Positions 7,306 through 53,931 of a stretch of 64,000 nt of DNA are shown here, in pieces (the first letter of the stretch is position 1; every line of letters starts with the position of its first letter). The position numbers were made by a program, and so were the translations under genes. The DNA comes from Enterococcaceae bacterium (lineage in GTDB: Bacteria > Bacillota > Bacilli > Lactobacillales > Enterococcaceae), in NCBI GenBank assembly GCA_022649665.1, contig JALCOL010000011.1, positions 1 to 64,000 of the forward strand. Reading direction: 5' to 3'. The notes under the pieces were generated by a model. That model searched no databases. It saw nothing but the letters and a program-made list of their open reading frames with translations, and was not told the DNA's origin.

Positions 7306-7497
7306 TTAATCTGAATTTTTCGGTAGAATCTTTTTCAACCTTTTTTCAAAATCTCTCCTAGTCATCATAACAATATGCTGGCATTTCGTGCAACGAATTT
7401 TTATATCTGCGCCCATTCGAATGATCTCCCAGCAATTCGCCTGGCAAGCATGCGGCTTTTTCATTTCGACCAAGTCATGCAATTCATAATTTTTCAA
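7306..7497 (-). CDS. DUF951 small zinc-ribbon-like protein
   Basis: A 63-residue basic protein with the DUF951 pattern: KKPHACQANCWEI near residue 13, then KIRCTKCQHIVMM, giving two cysteine pairs likely to bind zinc. It is regularly found between parB and ychF in Lactobacillales; function is unknown. The TTG start at 7497 overlaps the end of parB by 14 bp and has AAGGAGGAAG upstream, so translational coupling is likely. Confidence 0.85.
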   Translation of the reverse strand: MKNYELHDLVEMKKPHACQANCWEIIRMGADIKIRCTKCQHIVMMTRRDFEKRLKKILPKNSD

Positions 7498-8395
7498 GCG
7501 GGCTTCCTCCTTTGTCCAAAGAAAAATGCAGCCGATCCAAAATTTTGGTTAACTCTTCTTCTGAAGTATAGTTGATCTCGATTTTTCCTTTATTTTTTTG
7601 ATGCTGGATCTTGACTGGGGCCTGCAGCTCATCACTCAGCTGTGCCGCGATCGCTTGATAAAAGATCTCTTCAGGCGGCAAAGCTTTCCGCGTTTTTTGC
7701 TGTTTTTTCTGCTGGCGTTTGTTTTCTTCGGCGACCAGTTTTTCGATCTGCCGCACCGTCAAACTTTCTTTGATCGCGCGGTTGGCCAGCTTCAGCATCG
7801 CTTTTTCAGTTTTTAATCCTAAAAGTGTGCGTGCTTGCCCCATCGACAGATTATTTTTTTGAACTTCTTGTTTGACGATCGCCGGCAGCGTCAAAAGTCG
7901 CAGATAGTTCGCGATATAAGAACGGCTTTTCCCTAATTTTTCTGAGAGTTCAGCTTGCGTCAGCCCAAGATTTTTCATCAGCATTTGATACGCTTCGGCC
8001 TCTTCGAGCGGCGAGAGGTCTTCCCGCTGCAGATTCTCCAAAACAGCGACCTGCATCATTCCGACGTCATCCATATCGCGCACGATCGCCGGGATCGTTT
8101 CTTTTTCAGCCAGTTTCGAGGCGCGGAATCGGCGTTCCCCGGCAATGATATCATATCCTTTGATCTTTGATTTGCGCACGATGATCGGCTGGAAAACGCC
8201 TGATTGCCGGATCGATTTTGCAAGCTCAGCGATTTTTTCTTCATCAAAGACTTGCCGCGGCTGATACGGGTTCGGCCGCAAATCACGCAGTTTGATCTCA
8301 GAAATCTGCGCTTCAGTACTTTTCGCTTCGGTTTCTAAATAATTCAGATCTTTGAAAAGTGCATCCATCCCGCGGCCTAAACTTTTATTCTTCAT
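7484..8395 (-). CDS. parB: Chromosome-partitioning protein ParB (Spo0J family)
   Basis: A CTPase DNA clamp that loads at parS and recruits ParA and SMC near the origin. The N-terminal ParB/Srx domain holds LRPNPYQPRQVF (about 35-46), IIAGERRFRASK (box II, about 84-95) and AVLENLQREDLSPLEEA (box III). An HTH with LTQAELSEKLGKSRSYIANYLRLL (about 148-171) reads parS. The C-terminal part is basic and ends in the dimerisation region. Length 303 is normal. It overlaps parA by 11 bp. A perfect parS lies at 53916, so ParB has a binding site within this window. Confidence 0.96.
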   Translation of the reverse strand: MKNKSLGRGMDALFKDLNYLETEAKSTEAQISEIKLRDLRPNPYQPRQVFDEEKIAELAKSIRQSGVFQPIIVRKSKIKGYDIIAGERRFRASKLAEKETIPAIVRDMDDVGMMQVAVLENLQREDLSPLEEAEAYQMLMKNLGLTQAELSEKLGKSRSYIANYLRLLTLPAIVKQEVQKNNLSMGQARTLLGLKTEKAMLKLANRAIKESLTVRQIEKLVAEENKRQQKKQQKTRKALPPEEIFYQAIAAQLSDELQAPVKIQHQKNKGKIEINYTSEEELTKILDRLHFSLDKGGSPLEKL

Positions 8396-9152
8396 CGCGT
8401 GCGATCACTTCCTCTGCCAATTTGCGGTAAGCTTGGGCACCTTTGGAAGATGGCGCATAATCCAAGACCGACAAGCCATGACTCGGCGCTTCGGACAATT
8501 TGATATTGCGCGGGATCACGACATTAAATACCTGTTCTTGAAAATACTTCCGCACCTCTTCGTTGACCTCGGCTCCTAAATTCGTCCGCGCATCATACAT
8601 CGTCAATAATACGCCTTCGATGCCCAAATCAGGATTAAAGTGCTTTTGGACCAAGTGGACCGTATTCAAAAGCTGGCTCAATCCTTCCAGTGCATAGTAT
8701 TCGCTTTGGACCGGGATCAAGATTGCGTCGCTGGCGGTAAACGCGTTGATCGTCAAATGCCCGAGCGATGGCGGACAATCGATCAAAACATAATCGTATT
8801 TTTCCTTCCCCTTTTTGAGCGCTGTTTTCAAGCGCGATTCTCTAGCCATCATGGTCGTCAGCTCGATTTCGGCGCCCGCTAATCGAAGCGTTGCCGGGAC
8901 GATCGCGACCCCTTTTGCACTGGTCGGCAAAATCATGTGCGCCAACGGGACTTCGCTTACGAGGACATCATAAATATCTTGCTTTACTTTATTTTTTTGG
9001 ATCCCGAGTCCGCTGGTCGCGTTCCCTTGAGCGTCCATATCAATGATCAAAATCTCTTTTTTAAGTTCGGCTAAAGCAGCAGCCAGATCGACTGTTGTCG
9101 TTGTTTTGCCGACTCCGCCTTTTTGATTGGCGATCGAAATGACTTTTGTCAT
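8385..9152 (-). CDS. parA: Chromosome-partitioning ATPase ParA (Soj)
   Basis: Deviant-Walker ATPase that dimerises on DNA and acts with ParB in origin segregation; the Soj type also modulates DnaA. The N-terminal motif KGGVGKTTTTVDLA (about 10-23) is the ParA signature, followed by DMDAQGNATSGLG and VLIDCPPSLGHL (Walker B region). The 255-residue length, without an N-terminal HTH, marks the chromosomal Soj class. It lies 13 bp behind rsmG and overlaps parB, forming the conserved rsmG-soj-spo0J operon. Confidence 0.96.
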   Translation of the reverse strand: MTKVISIANQKGGVGKTTTTVDLAAALAELKKEILIIDMDAQGNATSGLGIQKNKVKQDIYDVLVSEVPLAHMILPTSAKGVAIVPATLRLAGAEIELTTMMARESRLKTALKKGKEKYDYVLIDCPPSLGHLTINAFTASDAILIPVQSEYYALEGLSQLLNTVHLVQKHFNPDLGIEGVLLTMYDARTNLGAEVNEEVRKYFQEQVFNVVIPRNIKLSEAPSHGLSVLDYAPSSKGAQAYRKLAEEVIARDEE

Positions 9153-9165
9153 CCTTCTCCCCCTT

Positions 9166-9873
9166 TTACAATGGTTTGCGATTCGGCGTTCCCGCCTTGC
9201 GCGGATATTTCTGCGGTGTCTTTTTGATTTTTTTGATGACGATCAATGTCCGCGGATCTTCGCTGTCCGGCAAATTCCATTCTTTGACACTTGCGACTTC
9301 GCCGCCCAATATTTTAAGCGCTTTTTCAGCATCCGCCAGCTCTTCTTTGGCTTTACTGGCTTTCAGCGCAATGAAACTCCCGCCGATTTTGACCAGCGGC
9401 AGACACAATTCTGCCAAGACGTTCAAACGCGCTACTGCACGGGCAGTCACATAATCATACCCTTCACGCTGTTCCGGCAGCTGAGCGAAAATCTCCGCGC
9501 GCTCGTGATACAGCGCCACATCGGCTACATTCAGCTTTTTGATCAATTCGCTCAAAAAAATAATCCTTTTGTTAAGCGAATCGACGATCGAAATTTTAAG
9601 ATCGGGACGAATGATTTTCAGCGGCAAACTCGGAAACCCGGCACCAGCGCCGACATCACAGATCCGCGCATTTTGCGGGAATTCGATAAAAAACAGCGGC
9701 GCCAGCGAATCATAAAAATGTTTGAGATAAACTTCATCGCGATCCGTGATCGCCGTCAGGTTCATTTTTTCATTCCATTCGATCAGCAGCTGATAATATA
9801 TTTCAAATTGTTCTTTTTGATGAGAATTTAATAAAATATGATGTTTTTCTAATGCTTCGGAAAAGCGCTCCAT
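9166..9873 (-). CDS. rsmG: 16S rRNA (guanine-N7) methyltransferase RsmG
   Basis: SAM-dependent methyltransferase modifying G527 (E. coli numbering) of 16S rRNA. The SAM-binding loop CDVGAGAGFPSLPLKI and the following acidic strand ISIVDSLNKR are clear, as is YDYVTARAVARLNVL. An upstream in-frame extension exists, but the ATG at 9873 is preferred: it has GAGGAGG at 9881-9887 and yields MERFSEALEKH, the usual start, giving 235 residues. First gene of the parA/parB operon, with a promoter at 9921-9949 and a 22-bp palindrome in its leader. Confidence 0.94.
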   Translation of the reverse strand: MERFSEALEKHHILLNSHQKEQFEIYYQLLIEWNEKMNLTAITDRDEVYLKHFYDSLAPLFFIEFPQNARICDVGAGAGFPSLPLKIIRPDLKISIVDSLNKRIIFLSELIKKLNVADVALYHERAEIFAQLPEQREGYDYVTARAVARLNVLAELCLPLVKIGGSFIALKASKAKEELADAEKALKILGGEVASVKEWNLPDSEDPRTLIVIKKIKKTPQKYPRKAGTPNRKPL

Positions 9874-9888
9874 TGCAGATCCTCCTCT

Positions 9889-9910
9889 TGTGAAACATAA
9901 TTGTTTCACA
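9889..9910. promoter_or_regulatory. Everted parS-like palindrome in the rsmG leader
   Basis: Perfect inverted repeat TGTGAAACA - TAAT - TGTTTCACA. The arms are parS half-sites in reversed order: parS is TGTTTCAC followed by GTGAAACA, here GTGAAACA precedes TGTTTCAC with a 4-bp spacer. It sits just after the predicted transcription start (about 9914) and touches the Shine-Dalgarno (9881-9888). It could be a DNA operator or an RNA hairpin that controls rsmG-parA-parB. Its role is unknown. Confidence 0.6.
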
Positions 9911-9920
9911 GACTGCTTCT

Positions 9921-9949
9921 ACTTTACTCGATTTTGCGGTTGATTGCAA
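9921..9949 (-). promoter_or_regulatory. rsmG-parA-parB promoter
   Basis: On the minus strand TTGCAA (9944-9949) and TAAAGT (9921-9926) are 17 bp apart. They place the start at about 9914, just before the palindrome and the rsmG ribosome-binding site. Confidence 0.6.
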
Positions 9950-10194: not shown

Positions 10195-12501
10195 ATGAAG
10201 AAACAACATTTGTATCTTTCATCTGCTGTTCTGGCGGTTGCAGCCGGTCTTGGGCTAAGCATCGCACTGGACACGCCGGAAGCAGATGCAGCGCAAGTAC
10301 CAGTTCAAATGCTCGGCATCAATGATTTTCATGGTGCGTTGGACAATCCAGGCAGTTTCTATGATGGAGACGGCAACAAAACGGCGAATAGCGGAGGAGC
10401 TGCTCTTTTAGCCGGATATCTGAACAAAGCACAGTCTGATTTCAAAACAGCGACAAATGGTGAAACGATTCGCGTCCAAGCCGGCGACATGGTCGGTGCT
10501 TCCCCGGCAAGTTCAGGCCTGCTGCAAGATGAACCGACGATCAACGTTTTAAATGAAATGAATTTCACTGTCGGAACTCTGGGAAATCATGAATTTGATG
10601 AAGGCTTGCCTGAATATAAACGAATTCTTGATGGTGTAAAACCGGCTCCTGATCAATTTCCGGAAAACATCCAAAAAATCTTAGATAACTATCCGCAAGA
10701 GAAATCGAAAATGGATATCGTGGTCGCTAACGTCGTCAACAAATCAGATGGCTCGATCCCTGAAGGCTTCAAACCTTACACAGTCAAAGAAATCGGCGGA
10801 GTAAAAGTCGGCTACATCGGGATCGTAACGACTGAAATCCCAAATCTCGTATTGAAAGACCATATCAAAGACTTCAACTTTTTAAATGAATCGGAAACGA
10901 TCGCAAAATATTCGAAGGAATTGCAGGAAAAAGAAGGCGTCAAAGCCATCGTTGTTTTAGCGCATACGCCTATGGCAACGAAAAATGACGGTACTTGGAC
11001 TGACGATACTTCCGAAAAAATCATGGAAAAAGTGGACGCGATTTATCCGCAAAACAGTGTCGATGTCTACTTCGGCGGACATAACCATAAATATGCGAAT
11101 GGCACTGACGGCAAACGCCGTTACGTTGAATCGACTTCTAACGGCCGCGGCTATATCGATCTTCAAGGGAAACTTGACACTGATACAAAAGATTTCACTG
11201 CCGTTCCGACCGCAACGGTCAACCCTGTTGCTCCAAAAAATGATGCAATCACGCCTGATCCTGCGGTAGCAGCAACAGTCAAACAAGCACAAGATCTGAT
11301 CAAACCGATCACTGAAGCGTCAATCGGGAAAGCAACAACAGAAGATGCTAAAAACGGCATGATCACCCGCGACGTCAATGATAATGTGCAAAAAGAATCA
11401 CCTGTCGGCAATATGATCACTGACGGCCAAGTCTACATGTCGAAAAAAGCCGGCTTGAATGCTGACTTTGCAATGACCAACAACGGCGGGATCCGTTCCG
11501 ATTTGGCTGTTGGATCGAACGCTGAGATCACTTGGGGCTCGGCACAAGCCGTTCAGCCATTCGGAAATATCATGCAAGTCATCGATATGACCGGCAAGGA
11601 TATCGAAAATGTGCTGAATCAGCAATATGATGATGATCTTTACTTCTTGCAAATTTCCGGCTTGCGCTATGATTTCAAAGCAAATACCGGCGCTGACAAA
11701 GACAAACAAAAATATGTCGTAACTTACATGGAAAAATCTGATGGTACCCCGATCAAAGCAGACCAAACTTATAAAGTAGTCATCAATGACTTCTTGTTTG
11801 GCGGCGGTGATGGTTTCAGCGGTTTCGTAGGCAAACACTTGGTCGGCGCAATGGATCCGGATACGGAAACATTCGTCAACTATATCACCGATAAAACAGC
11901 AGAAGCCGGCTATGTGACAGGCAAAGTCGAAGGCCGCAAACATTTAGCGATCGAAAATGGCTGGGCACAAATCGGCGATAACTGGGTTTACTACAAAAAC
12001 AGTGAACGCCAAAAAGGCTGGCAATTTATTGCGAATGTTTGGTATTACTTAGATCCTTCCACGGGTGTAATGCAAACTGGTTGGCAAAAGATTGGTAATG
12101 CTTGGTATTTGTTCAATAACGGTGGCGCAATGCTAACCGGTTGGCAAAAACTCGGCAATACTTGGTATTTGTTCGATCAAGGTGGTGCAATGCAAACCGG
12201 CTGGCATTATCTCAGCAATGCTTGGTACTACTTTGATCAAGGTGGTGCAATGGCAAGCGGCTGGAAGCAAATCGGCAATACTTGGTACCTGTTTGATAAC
12301 GGAGGTGCAATGCTAACCGGTTGGCAGAAATTAGGAAAAACTTGGTATTTCTTCAATCGCGATGGTGCGATGATCACCGGCTGGTATAAAGTTGGCCCGA
12401 CCTGGTATTACATGGATAAAGGCGGTGCAATGGTGACTGGAACACAAAAAATCGACGGAAGAACTTATCACTTTAACAATTCAGGTGGTTGGATCGACTA
12501 G
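10195..12501 (+). CDS. Secreted 5'-nucleotidase with choline-binding-type repeats
   Basis: A 768-residue surface enzyme of the 5'-nucleotidase/2',3'-cyclic phosphodiesterase family, expected to strip phosphate from extracellular nucleotides. A signal peptide (1 to about 33) precedes the metallophosphatase domain with GINDFHG (D44, H46), GNHEFDEG, VVLAHTPM and GGHNHK. The 5_nucleotid_C substrate domain (about 370-560) has TNNGGIRSDL and FGGGDGFSGF. Residues about 589-768 (DNA 11959-12501) are nine repeats of the form GWxxxGxxWYYxxxxGAMxT, which should attach the protein to choline- or glycan-decorated wall polymers. No LPXTG motif is present. Plus orientation opposes the flanking housekeeping genes and replication, which suggests an acquired pair with the next gene. 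Confidence 0.92.
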   Translation: MKKQHLYLSSAVLAVAAGLGLSIALDTPEADAAQVPVQMLGINDFHGALDNPGSFYDGDGNKTANSGGAALLAGYLNKAQSDFKTATNGETIRVQAGDMVGASPASSGLLQDEPTINVLNEMNFTVGTLGNHEFDEGLPEYKRILDGVKPAPDQFPENIQKILDNYPQEKSKMDIVVANVVNKSDGSIPEGFKPYTVKEIGGVKVGYIGIVTTEIPNLVLKDHIKDFNFLNESETIAKYSKELQEKEGVKAIVVLAHTPMATKNDGTWTDDTSEKIMEKVDAIYPQNSVDVYFGGHNHKYANGTDGKRRYVESTSNGRGYIDLQGKLDTDTKDFTAVPTATVNPVAPKNDAITPDPAVAATVKQAQDLIKPITEASIGKATTEDAKNGMITRDVNDNVQKESPVGNMITDGQVYMSKKAGLNADFAMTNNGGIRSDLAVGSNAEITWGSAQAVQPFGNIMQVIDMTGKDIENVLNQQYDDDLYFLQISGLRYDFKANTGADKDKQKYVVTYMEKSDGTPIKADQTYKVVINDFLFGGGDGFSGFVGKHLVGAMDPDTETFVNYITDKTAEAGYVTGKVEGRKHLAIENGWAQIGDNWVYYKNSERQKGWQFIANVWYYLDPSTGVMQTGWQKIGNAWYLFNNGGAMLTGWQKLGNTWYLFDQGGAMQTGWHYLSNAWYYFDQGGAMASGWKQIGNTWYLFDNGGAMLTGWQKLGKTWYFFNRDGAMITGWYKVGPTWYYMDKGGAMVTGTQKIDGRTYHFNNSGGWID
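11959..12501 (+). repeat. Choline-binding-type repeat array, nine units
   Basis: Tandem units of about 20 codons beginning GW and containing WYY/WYL then GGAM. DNA is strongly similar between units (e.g. the recurring ggtggtgcaatg). The last unit is divergent (GTQKIDGRTYHF), as in the neighbouring nuclease. The ligand could be choline or an alpha-glucan; the sequence does not decide. Confidence 0.85.
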
Positions 12502-12607: not shown

Positions 12608-15600
12608 ATGCACTCGAAATCTTATCGTTATTTATTTAAAGCGCTTTCAGTTTTAGCTTTAAGCGCCGGTACTGCTGCAGTTTTGCCCGGTTCGCTGCCT
12701 TCGGTATTCAATGATGCACCCGCCGCGACTGCGTACGCCGCAGGATTCACAGATATTCCGCAAGATGGCTCATCTGTTACCAAACAAGGCTATGTGGTCG
12801 GTGCAGCAAATGGTTCGGCAAATAAAGTCGTCACTGGGAAAGATGATCCTACTTTACCGAATTCAAATCTGGTGATTGCGGAGAGTCCAACTACTGATCC
12901 AGCAAAACCAGAAAATTTGATTTTTGTGCAGTTGCCATCGCAGTTCCGCGATCAGTTTGCAGCGAAAATAACGATCGGCAAAAAAGTGGAAGTTAGTGGT
13001 TCTGGCGAAAAATATTTTGGTCAAATCGGTATCAAAGACACTACTGCTGTCAAAATCGTCGGCGATGACCCGACTCCGCCAGACCCTGATGTCAAAGACG
13101 TCACGATTTTACAAGCGCGGACTGCTTTCAAAGCAAATGATACCAAAAAAGTTAGAGTCACCGGCCGGATCACGACCGACATCGGCTCTTGGGGCGGAAA
13201 AGGCTTTTATATTCAAGATGCGACTGGCGGCGTGAATGTTTACACTACGCAAGACTTAGGTCTTTCTCGCGGTGATGAAGTGACTGTGGAAGGAGCTCCT
13301 TCTGCAAACAATAATGAGATCCAATTTGCTTCACCAACGATCAAGAAAACCAGCTCTGCTAACCAAATCGTTGCTCCTGCAAAACAAACTTCATTGGATG
13401 CGATCACGTCTGACGCTGATCAAGGCGAATATGTTAGTTTCGATAAGGTAACGATCACGAGCGACATCAACAAAGTAGACACTTACGGTACTAGCGAGTT
13501 TACGATCACTGATGAAGCTGGAAAAACTGCGACAGTACGCTTTGATAATCGCGCAGGGGTAACTTATGATGATTTGACAAAAACTGCGGATGGTAGCGTG
13601 AAATTTACCAAAGGTTCCGTCATCAATATTGCCGGAGTCGTTTCGCAATATAAAGATGCCTTCCAGCTCAAACCAACCCAATGGGATGACATGCATTTCA
13701 ATGATCCGGCAGAGGATGCAGCAAAAAATCCGAAACCGAAACCAGTCGGTGACGCAACGATCCATCAAATTCAAGGCAGATCGCAAAGAAGCCCATTAGT
13801 TGGTAAACATGTCTCGAATGTCGTTGGTGTTGTAACGAACGCGGATAATAGTAAAAAAATCTATATCCAAACACCAGCAGGTCAAGAAGACAATGATCCC
13901 GCTACTTCTGAAGGGCTCTTGGTGCAATTTAAAAATGATCCTAACTTGAGCGTCGGCGATCAAGTGACTTTGGATGGTGACGTTAAGGAAGTCTTTCTTG
14001 ATGGCTATTCAGAGAAGACAAAAACCGACTTGACAACTACTGCATTGACTAATCCCGTAGTCGTCAAAAAAGAGGCTGGCAAAGTTCCTAAACCAGTCGT
14101 GATCGGCAAAGACCGGATCATTCCAACCGAAAAGATCTCCAGCAATAATTTCATGACTTTCGATCCGTCGAAATACACGATCGATTTCTGGGAATCTTTG
14201 GAATCGATGCAAGTCCAAGTTGATAATCCAAAAGTGATCGGACCAGAGCAATACAATGAATTAACAGTTCTGCCATCTGAAAGCAAACGCACTTTGAATG
14301 ATATGGGCGGCCTGACGCTGACAAAAGACAGCTACAATATGGACAAAGTCTCTATTCTGATGACTGGCAAGAATAAGAAAGATGTCAAATATTTCATTGG
14401 CGATACTTTCCAAGCTCCAGTCACTGGTCCTGTAACTTACGATTATAGCAACTACAAGATCCTATCGGATGTGGATAATCTTCCTGAAGTAACTAAGGGG
14501 AACATCAAACCGGAACAAACCACTTTGACACCAGCAACGGACAAATTAAGTATCGCTTCTTACAACGTTGAGAACTTCACGGCAGTTTCCAGCGAAACAC
14601 CGGATTCCAAAGTAGCAAAATTGGCAAATTCGTTTGTGAATGATATCAAAAAACCCGACGTGATCACACTGATGGAAATGCAAGATGATTCTGGAAGCAA
14701 AGACGACGGAGTCACCAGCTCGCAAGAAAGCGGAAAACGCTTGGCAGATGCAATCAAAAAAGCTGGCGGCCCGCAATACACGTATGTCGACGTTGCACCG
14801 GAAAATAACCAAGACGGCGGCGCACCTGGTGCCAACATCCGTGTCGCTTACCTTTATAATGCAGATCGTGTTGAATTGAAGAATCCTAAAACTTCCACTT
14901 CTACTGAAGAAGTGAAGTGGCAAGCAGATGGTACGCTGAGCGTCAACCCAGGACGTTTAGGCGTTGGCAATGGCGACTTCAAGAGCACGCGGAAACCGCT
15001 TGTTGCGCAATTTACTCTAAAATCAACGAATGAAGACTTCTTCGTGATCGCCAACCACTTGAATTCTAAACGTGGTGATGATCCAGTGATGGGCCAAAAC
15101 CAACCACCGGTATTCAAGTCGGAAACACAACGTCATAAATTAGCAACTTATATCAACCAATTTATTAAAGACGGAATGGCGAAGAATCCGAAAATGAATT
15201 TGATCATGGATGGCGACATCAATGATTATGAATTCAGTCAAACCGCAGCGATCCTAGCTGGCGATCAAATGACCGATTTGGTCAATAACCACGATTTGAA
15301 GGACCGTTTCTCTTACTTCTACCAAGGAAACTTCCAAACTCTTGATCAAATGTTCGTATCGAATAATTTGAAAGACGATGCAACATTCGACATGGTTCAT
15401 ATCAACTCGGCGTTCGATGATGAACACCGCGCTTCCGACCATGATCCGCTCCATGCAGTGATCAGTTTGAAAGAGAAAGCAGTTGTTTTGAATGGCTGGC
15501 ATCAAGAAGGCAGTGACTGGTACTTCTATAAAGATAATAAGAAGGTCCATGGCTGGCTGGAAGATGGCGGATCCAAGTACTACTTGAATCCTGATAAAGA

Positions 15601-16402
15601 TGGCGCACGCGTGAGCGGCTGGCAGACGATCGACAATGCATCATACTATTTCAACCAAGATGGTGTTATGCAGACCGGCTGGCTGGATGATGGCGGCTTC
15701 CGCTACTATCTGCGACCAAGTGACGGAGCGAAAGTCACTGGGTTCCAAACGATCGATGGTGCGCGTTACTACTTTGATAAAGACGGTCATATGATGACTG
15801 GCTGGCAATATCTTGACAACGCTTGGTACTACTTCAATAACGATGGCAAGATGGCGACCGGCTGGCTCAATCTTGGCGGCACTTGGTACTACCTGAACAA
15901 CGATGGCAAGATGGCGACTGGTTGGATCAATGACGGCGGCACTTGGTATTACATGAATGCCAGCGGCGCAATGACCACTGGTTGGCAGCTTGTAAACGGC
16001 ACATGGTACTATATGAACGCGAGCGGCGCAATGCAGACCGGCTGGTTGAAGCTCGGCAGTACTTGGTACTTCTTGAATGCGAGCGGTGCGATGGCGACTG
16101 GTTGGATGCAAATCGGAAATGCATGGTACTATTTCAACAATAGTGGTGCAATGACGACCGGCTGGCAGCTTGTCAACGGTACTTGGTACTATATGAACGC
16201 AAGTGGTACAATGGCAACTGGCTGGCTCAACGATCATGGTACGTGGTACTTCTTGAACGCGAGCGGTGCAATGGCGACTGGCTGGATCCAAGTTGGTCCA
16301 ACTTGGTACTATATGAACACAAGCGGCAACATGGTCACCGGCACGCAAACGATCAACGGCAAAACCTATCGCTTCTCCTCAAATGGCGACTGGATCGGAT
16401 AA
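12608..16402 (+). CDS. Large secreted nuclease (ExeM/NucH-like, EEP fold) with choline-binding-type repeats
   Basis: A 1264-residue extracellular protein predicted to cut nucleic acid. A signal peptide (about 1-46, ending near YAA) is followed by OB-fold-like modules: KVRVTGRITTDIGSWGGKGF and GFYIQDATGGVNVY near 180-205, and IHQIQGRSQRSPLVGKHV near 385, the arrangement seen in ExeM/YhcR-type nucleases. The endonuclease/exonuclease/phosphatase domain (about 645-955) has ASYNVENF, TLMEMQDD, VIANHLNSKRGDD, IMDGDINDYEFS and ASDHDPLHAV, covering the expected catalytic Asn, Glu, His and Asp residues. Residues about 962-1264 are fifteen choline-binding-type repeats. A GGAGGAGG Shine-Dalgarno-like stretch precedes the ATG. 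Substrate (DNA, RNA or both) cannot be told. Confidence 0.88.
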   Translation: MHSKSYRYLFKALSVLALSAGTAAVLPGSLPSVFNDAPAATAYAAGFTDIPQDGSSVTKQGYVVGAANGSANKVVTGKDDPTLPNSNLVIAESPTTDPAKPENLIFVQLPSQFRDQFAAKITIGKKVEVSGSGEKYFGQIGIKDTTAVKIVGDDPTPPDPDVKDVTILQARTAFKANDTKKVRVTGRITTDIGSWGGKGFYIQDATGGVNVYTTQDLGLSRGDEVTVEGAPSANNNEIQFASPTIKKTSSANQIVAPAKQTSLDAITSDADQGEYVSFDKVTITSDINKVDTYGTSEFTITDEAGKTATVRFDNRAGVTYDDLTKTADGSVKFTKGSVINIAGVVSQYKDAFQLKPTQWDDMHFNDPAEDAAKNPKPKPVGDATIHQIQGRSQRSPLVGKHVSNVVGVVTNADNSKKIYIQTPAGQEDNDPATSEGLLVQFKNDPNLSVGDQVTLDGDVKEVFLDGYSEKTKTDLTTTALTNPVVVKKEAGKVPKPVVIGKDRIIPTEKISSNNFMTFDPSKYTIDFWESLESMQVQVDNPKVIGPEQYNELTVLPSESKRTLNDMGGLTLTKDSYNMDKVSILMTGKNKKDVKYFIGDTFQAPVTGPVTYDYSNYKILSDVDNLPEVTKGNIKPEQTTLTPATDKLSIASYNVENFTAVSSETPDSKVAKLANSFVNDIKKPDVITLMEMQDDSGSKDDGVTSSQESGKRLADAIKKAGGPQYTYVDVAPENNQDGGAPGANIRVAYLYNADRVELKNPKTSTSTEEVKWQADGTLSVNPGRLGVGNGDFKSTRKPLVAQFTLKSTNEDFFVIANHLNSKRGDDPVMGQNQPPVFKSETQRHKLATYINQFIKDGMAKNPKMNLIMDGDINDYEFSQTAAILAGDQMTDLVNNHDLKDRFSYFYQGNFQTLDQMFVSNNLKDDATFDMVHINSAFDDEHRASDHDPLHAVISLKEKAVVLNGWHQEGSDWYFYKDNKKVHGWLEDGGSKYYLNPDKDGARVSGWQTIDNASYYFNQDGVMQTGWLDDGGFRYYLRPSDGAKVTGFQTIDGARYYFDKDGHMMTGWQYLDNAWYYFNNDGKMATGWLNLGGTWYYLNNDGKMATGWINDGGTWYYMNASGAMTTGWQLVNGTWYYMNASGAMQTGWLKLGSTWYFLNASGAMATGWMQIGNAWYYFNNSGAMTTGWQLVNGTWYYMNASGTMATGWLNDHGTWYFLNASGAMATGWIQVGPTWYYMNTSGNMVTGTQTINGKTYRFSSNGDWIG
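15493..16402 (+). repeat. Choline-binding-type repeat array, fifteen units
   Basis: Units of 19-22 codons of the form GWxxxxGTWYYMNxSGAMxT. The early units (to about 15780) are divergent and longer. The later ones are nearly identical in DNA; for instance the unit encoding GWQLVNGTWYYMNASG occurs twice (about 15980 and 16160), a sign of recent internal duplication. The array ends in the same divergent unit (GTQTINGKTYRF) as the neighbouring 5'-nucleotidase. Confidence 0.87.
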
Positions 16403-53915: not shown

Positions 53916-53931
53916 TGTTTCACGTGAAACA
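53916..53931. promoter_or_regulatory. parS: parS centromere site
   Basis: TGTTTCACGTGAAACA, a perfect 16-bp match to the bacterial parS consensus, lies in noncoding DNA just after the iron permease gene. It is about 30 kb right of oriC, inside the origin-proximal zone where ParB loads. Confidence 0.95.

Follow-up and report, generated by a model that had tools for sequence, protein, structure and literature searches.

The window, the 64,000-nucleotide stretch of DNA analysed here, contains an operon of rsmG, parA and parB (Table 1). The ParB encoded here has the full domain architecture of a parS-reading protein, and the genome has no other ParB-family gene. The rsmG promoter was missed by a generic promoter scan, and its assignment therefore rests on conservation of the -10 hexamer in relatives: of the 110 rsmG leaders that match the site described below exactly, 109 have TAAAGT or a near variant in this position. 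The predicted transcription start, at about 9914, puts this site at about +5 to +25, between the start and the Shine-Dalgarno sequence of the operon that encodes ParB, which is where a reading made from the sequence alone (hereafter the sequence-only reading) had placed it. Divergent from rsmG are the genes for two large secreted proteins at 10195-12501 and 12608-16402, one 5'-nucleotidase-like and the other nuclease-like, both of which end in repeated cell-wall-binding type repeats (GWxxxxxxWYY-like).

Table 1. Coordinates of the operon, its promoter, the half-parS pair and parS in the window.
Feature	Position	Strand	Basis or remark
parB (spo0J), proposed reader	7484..8395	-	ParB_N, HTH_ParB, ParB_C, TIGR00180
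parA (soj), partition ATPase	8385..9152	-	PF13614, ParA-type
rsmG (gidB), 16S rRNA methyltransferase, first gene of the operon	9166..9873	-	TIGR00138, PF02527; ATG at 9873
Shine-Dalgarno AGGAGG of rsmG	9881..9886	-	sequence
Everted half-parS pair GTGAAACA-N4-TGTTTCAC, putative ParB operator	9890..9909	-	one more paired base per side gives 9889-9910
Promoter-distal half-site, TGTTTCAC on the operon strand	9890..9897	-	spacing and orientation differ between relatives
Promoter-proximal half-site, GTGAAACA on the operon strand	9902..9909	-	stays intact when the other half is lost or turned (L187, L223, L051, L251)
Predicted promoter: -35 TTGCAA 9949-9944, 17-bp spacer, -10 TAAAGT 9926-9921	9921..9949	-	sequence; -10 conserved in relatives
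Exact parS TGTTTCACGTGAAACA, presumed clamp-loading centromere site	53916..53931		the one exact parS of the genome

On the plus strand, positions 9889-9910 read T-GTGAAACA-TAAT-TGTTTCAC-A, that is, TGTGAAACA-TAAT-TGTTTCACA. This stretch had been described as a perfect 22-bp palindrome; the coordinates and the sequence hold, but because TAAT is not self-complementary the leader repeat is better called an inverted repeat, its two perfect 9-bp arms flanking a 4-bp spacer. The accompanying claim, that the arms are the two parS halves in swapped order on either side of TAAT, is exactly what the sequence contains. Both GTGAAACA (9890-9897) and TGTTTCAC (9902-9909) match a parS arm at 8 of 8 bases and thus have the sequence of a half-parS. 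In parS itself the order is TGTTTCAC followed directly by GTGAAACA, the two halves abutting head to head as the 16-bp palindrome TGTTNCACGTGNAACA; in the leader site the halves are reversed, or everted, and separated, so it is not a parS. The everted pair is the single match in the 2.37-Mb genome, even when two mismatches are allowed.

We searched other genomes with the exact pattern GTGAAACA-N(2-12)-TGTTTCAC, using the reversed pattern as a control. The exact pattern was present in 103 of the 105 genomes of the family, against one control match in each of two genomes; given this and the sole match in the genome studied here, we reject a chance origin of the everted pair. The two family genomes that have no exact match, G026 and G091, carry the same half-sites in the same leader as a direct repeat. 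Across the order, 180 of 395 genomes and 58 of 81 genera have the exact pattern, named carriers being Enterococcus sp. BWB1-3 and E. villorum (L034, L042). A sample of the class gave matches in 33 of 398 genomes, and those that we read outside the order do not lie in rsmG leaders.

We also compiled 146 distinct Lactobacillales rsmG leaders, 110 of which match exactly. One of these (L161), with a 9-bp spacer, far upstream and terminator-like, was dropped from the statistics. The remaining 109 have invariant arms, and their spacers measure 2 bp (6 leaders), 3 bp (4), 4 bp (12), 5 bp (21), 6 bp (52), 7 bp (13) and, once, 10 bp. These spacers comprise 66 different sequences and are palindromic in three leaders. 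Genome matches in L207, L211, L212 and L161, with spacers of 8-12 bp, look like terminators and were set aside; the site in the window has no T tract after the stem and is not read as one.

The pair is found where rsmG-(noc)-parA-parB has a promoter dedicated to it. It is absent, with one exception, from the sampled genomes of family f3, all of genus g19, and in the four leaders of this family that we read, parA-parB does not lie downstream of rsmG; these genomes are Streptococcus-like, and from their gene order we take them to be Streptococcaceae. The site is likewise absent from the Listeria-like family f7 and from some members of f8 and f4, in which rsmG lies behind mnmG or another gene and has no promoter of its own, or parA is far off. 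Genus g45 (L246, L248) has kept the promoter and parAB and has no site, and we regard these as real losses. In two genomes (G039, G056) the leader holds a full parS in place of the everted pair, and some leaders carry a full parS in addition, 90-205 bp upstream.

Among the 109 leaders, the site begins 11.9 +/- 1.9 bp (range 8-16) after the -10 hexamer ends and precedes the start codon by 20.8 +/- 6.5 nt (range 14-50). Where the 5' part of the leader is long (L012, L013, L028, L030), the site stays beside the promoter. The short -10 distance, the variable start-codon distance and the behaviour of the long leaders together indicate that placement of the site follows the transcription start and not the ribosome site. 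The pair thus sits where an operator would be expected, just past a conserved -10 at the promoter from which its predicted binding protein would be expressed.

Comparison of the leaders across relatives, which the sequence-only reading had called for, shows that half-site identity is kept and that pairing is not. In the leaders of G026 and G091 (L187, L223), the site has the form GTGAAACA-TTTTT-GTGAAACA, with diverged flanks, and no stem can form; this direct repeat is probably a single event inherited by two species. In L051 and L251, half-site 1 is intact while the second half is degenerate and pairing is lost. Among the rsmG leaders that we read, none shows compensatory changes between the arms. 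The direct repeats and the two degenerate leaders argue that selection acts on the half-site sequence rather than on pairing. Ahead of the Shine-Dalgarno sequence, the L187 and L223 leaders also have a short GC stem and then a run of T, an attenuator-like arrangement that was not seen in the relatives read.

Variation in the half-sites resembles variation in parS. The leader of G047 uses GTGGAACA, and one parS of that genome is TGTTTCACGTGGAACA. In genus g25, the outermost base is relaxed both in parS (e.g. AGTTTCACGTGAAACT and GGTTTCACGTGAAACA) and in the leader (GGTTTCAC). Genus g41 has a relaxed outer base in its parS-like sites and canonical half-sites in most leaders, so that co-variation of parS and leader is incomplete. 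These parallels are suggestive of ParB as the reader. Four genomes of g41 (G222, G254, G153, G422) have no canonical TGTTNCACGTGNAACA anywhere in the genome, their parS-like sites differing at the outermost base.

The sequence and uniqueness of the leader repeat, its conserved position, the invariance of its half-sites and its association with parA-parB point to a DNA operator consisting of two half-parS sites, through which ParB would negatively autoregulate rsmG-parA-parB, and we consider this the probable explanation. Here we infer three things: that ParB is the reader, that repression is the effect, and that clamps are not loaded. The helix-turn-helix domains of ParB would read the half-sites just downstream of the start point, and bound ParB would block promoter opening or escape, for which a location at +5 to +25 is suited; a rise in free ParB would then lower expression of the operon. 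Because the halves are split and everted instead of abutted, ParB probably binds locally, without closing into a CTP-dependent sliding clamp, which would separate gene control from the seeding of partition complexes. The sequence-only reading had proposed sensing by ParB or a ParB paralogue, or else an RNA hairpin. The comparative data on half-site identity, the tie to the promoter and the association with parA-parB favour sensing by ParB over the hairpin, and with a single ParB-family gene in the genome neither Noc nor a paralogue is needed as the reader. Three findings count against an operator read by ParB: a spacer range of 2-10 bp is unusual for a dimeric repressor, genus g45 has the promoter and parAB without the site, and in genus g41 the leader half-sites do not fully follow parS. 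The variable spacer suggests either a flexible linkage of two DNA-binding domains or two dimers that each engage one domain.

Alternatively, the repeat could be the operator of another transcription factor, whose half-site equals half of parS by coincidence. The site is indeed placed like an ordinary operator, and GTGAAA/TTTCAC also occurs in Rex-type operators, the consensus of which is TTGTGAA-N6-TTCACAA. However, GTGAA and TTCAC stand 10 bp apart here and 8-13 bp apart in nearly all leaders, against 6 bp for Rex, and on this inner spacing we reject a Rex-type operator. A different factor is also hard to reconcile with the match of all 8 bases per half to parS, including the inner ACA/TGT, with an orientation that is able to flip, or with a site that is usually unique in the genome, lies at the ParB operon and varies as parS does. 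We regard this explanation as unlikely.

It is also possible that ParB does bind the pair, for partition and not for gene control, in which case the site would be a parking or relay site that gathers or holds ParB in the origin region. The half-sites of P. aeruginosa have been proposed to retain ParB on the nucleoid (PMC10419367), and the full parS upstream of some leaders would fit such a role. The pair is, however, locked to the -10 of the par operon and missing from rsmG leaders that have no promoter of their own, which makes a partition role quite improbable.

As an RNA element, the start of the transcript could fold into a hairpin that shields the ribosome site or protects the mRNA 5' end. 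The arms are able to form a 9-bp stem near the Shine-Dalgarno sequence, and the site lies where the transcript is predicted to begin. Against this stand the lack of compensatory change in either arm and the leaders in which half-site sequence is retained without pairing, namely the two direct-repeat species and, for half-site 1, L051 and L251. Furthermore, the fold z-score is just -1.43, the distance to the Shine-Dalgarno sequence varies, 2-bp spacers would weaken the stem, and there is no Rfam match. A hairpin leader is thus very unlikely, and we reject sequestration of the Shine-Dalgarno sequence in particular on the variable start-codon distance and the dispensable pairing. Finally, a cruciform in which the repeat extrudes under supercoiling and two stacked hairpins rebuild a whole parS across the junction has geometry in its favour (the 3' arm TGTTTCAC stacked on the 5' arm GTGAAACA gives the parS order, and an irrelevant loop length fits the variable spacer), but it is impossible in the direct-repeat species and in leaders with a degenerate second half, arms of 8-9 bp extrude poorly, and we consider it extremely improbable.

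A ParB operator of this kind has known relatives, since half-parS binding and autoregulation by plasmid ParB proteins have both been described. ParB of P. aeruginosa binds half-parS sites in peaks of less than 0.6 kb and does not require a working CTP pocket to do so, and half-parS binding with narrow peaks is also found in other ParBs (PMC7022226, PMC10419367). The likeness lies in the use of a single parS arm (GTTTCAC or GTTCCAC there) as the ParB-binding unit and in narrow, non-spreading binding, which is predicted here; the difference is that in P. aeruginosa single half-sites are scattered by the hundred and are little linked to promoters, whereas the genomes here usually have one pair each, at a constant position relative to the promoter. 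ParB2 of V. cholerae uses a half-site for control at a place other than the centromere and without spreading (PMC3688505), as we predict here, but that half-site controls binding of the replication initiator on chromosome II and not a par operon. KorB, a ParB-family clamp protein, represses promoters (PMC11790492), and in P1 ParA/ParB, F SopAB and RK2 KorB a ParB-family protein acts at the promoter of its own or partner genes (PMC11790492, PMC7022226), again as predicted here; those systems are plasmid-borne and have ParA or KorA as the partner repressor. Compared with parS (TGTTTCACGTGAAACA), the leader site has the same two 8-bp half-sites, the same operon and, as proposed, the same reader, but its halves are everted (or direct), 2-10 bp apart and tied to one promoter. 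The open-access literature searched contained no description of a chromosomal par operon with a conserved everted operator.

Few studies have addressed how chromosomal ParB levels are set, and the P. aeruginosa work leaves open what half-parS binding does. With its conserved half-parS pair, which is usually present once per genome, the parAB promoter offers a clean place to test half-site binding as gene regulation, and lets one ask whether the arrangement of half-sites decides between clamp loading and local binding. More tentatively, and with somewhat less confidence than we would give to an even chance, we suggest that orientation and spacing of half-sites form a code, in which abutted parS would load clamps and split everted or direct halves at a promoter would recruit a non-spreading repressor, giving a conserved ParB feedback on the par operon across much of Lactobacillales. 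A ParB operator at this promoter would also tie the rRNA methylase gene rsmG to the feedback of the partition protein.

Half-parS sites also occur in other arrangements. In a dozen genomes of family f30 (L290-L301), the 3' part of the parB coding sequence holds a half-site GTGAAACA with a full parS 6 bp away; codon constraint and a second ParB contact are both possible there. In family f2 (L203, L204, L205), a half-site-N6-parS arrangement, with one mismatch in the parS, lies upstream of a D-Ala-D-Ala carboxypeptidase-like gene (dacA), about 10 kb from the rsmG leader site. The 6-bp gap of both is also the commonest spacer of the rsmG leaders, and may reflect how neighbouring ParB molecules are naturally spaced. 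A direct repeat of half-parS with an 11-bp spacer is found in several species of genus g8 (L236, L238, L239, L241) between typA-like and recQ-like helicase genes, upstream of the helicase gene, and could be another candidate ParB-bound promoter. At the dnaA-like/dnaN-like junction of one genome (G101; L209, 776-799), two half-parS sites stand everted with 8 bp between them.
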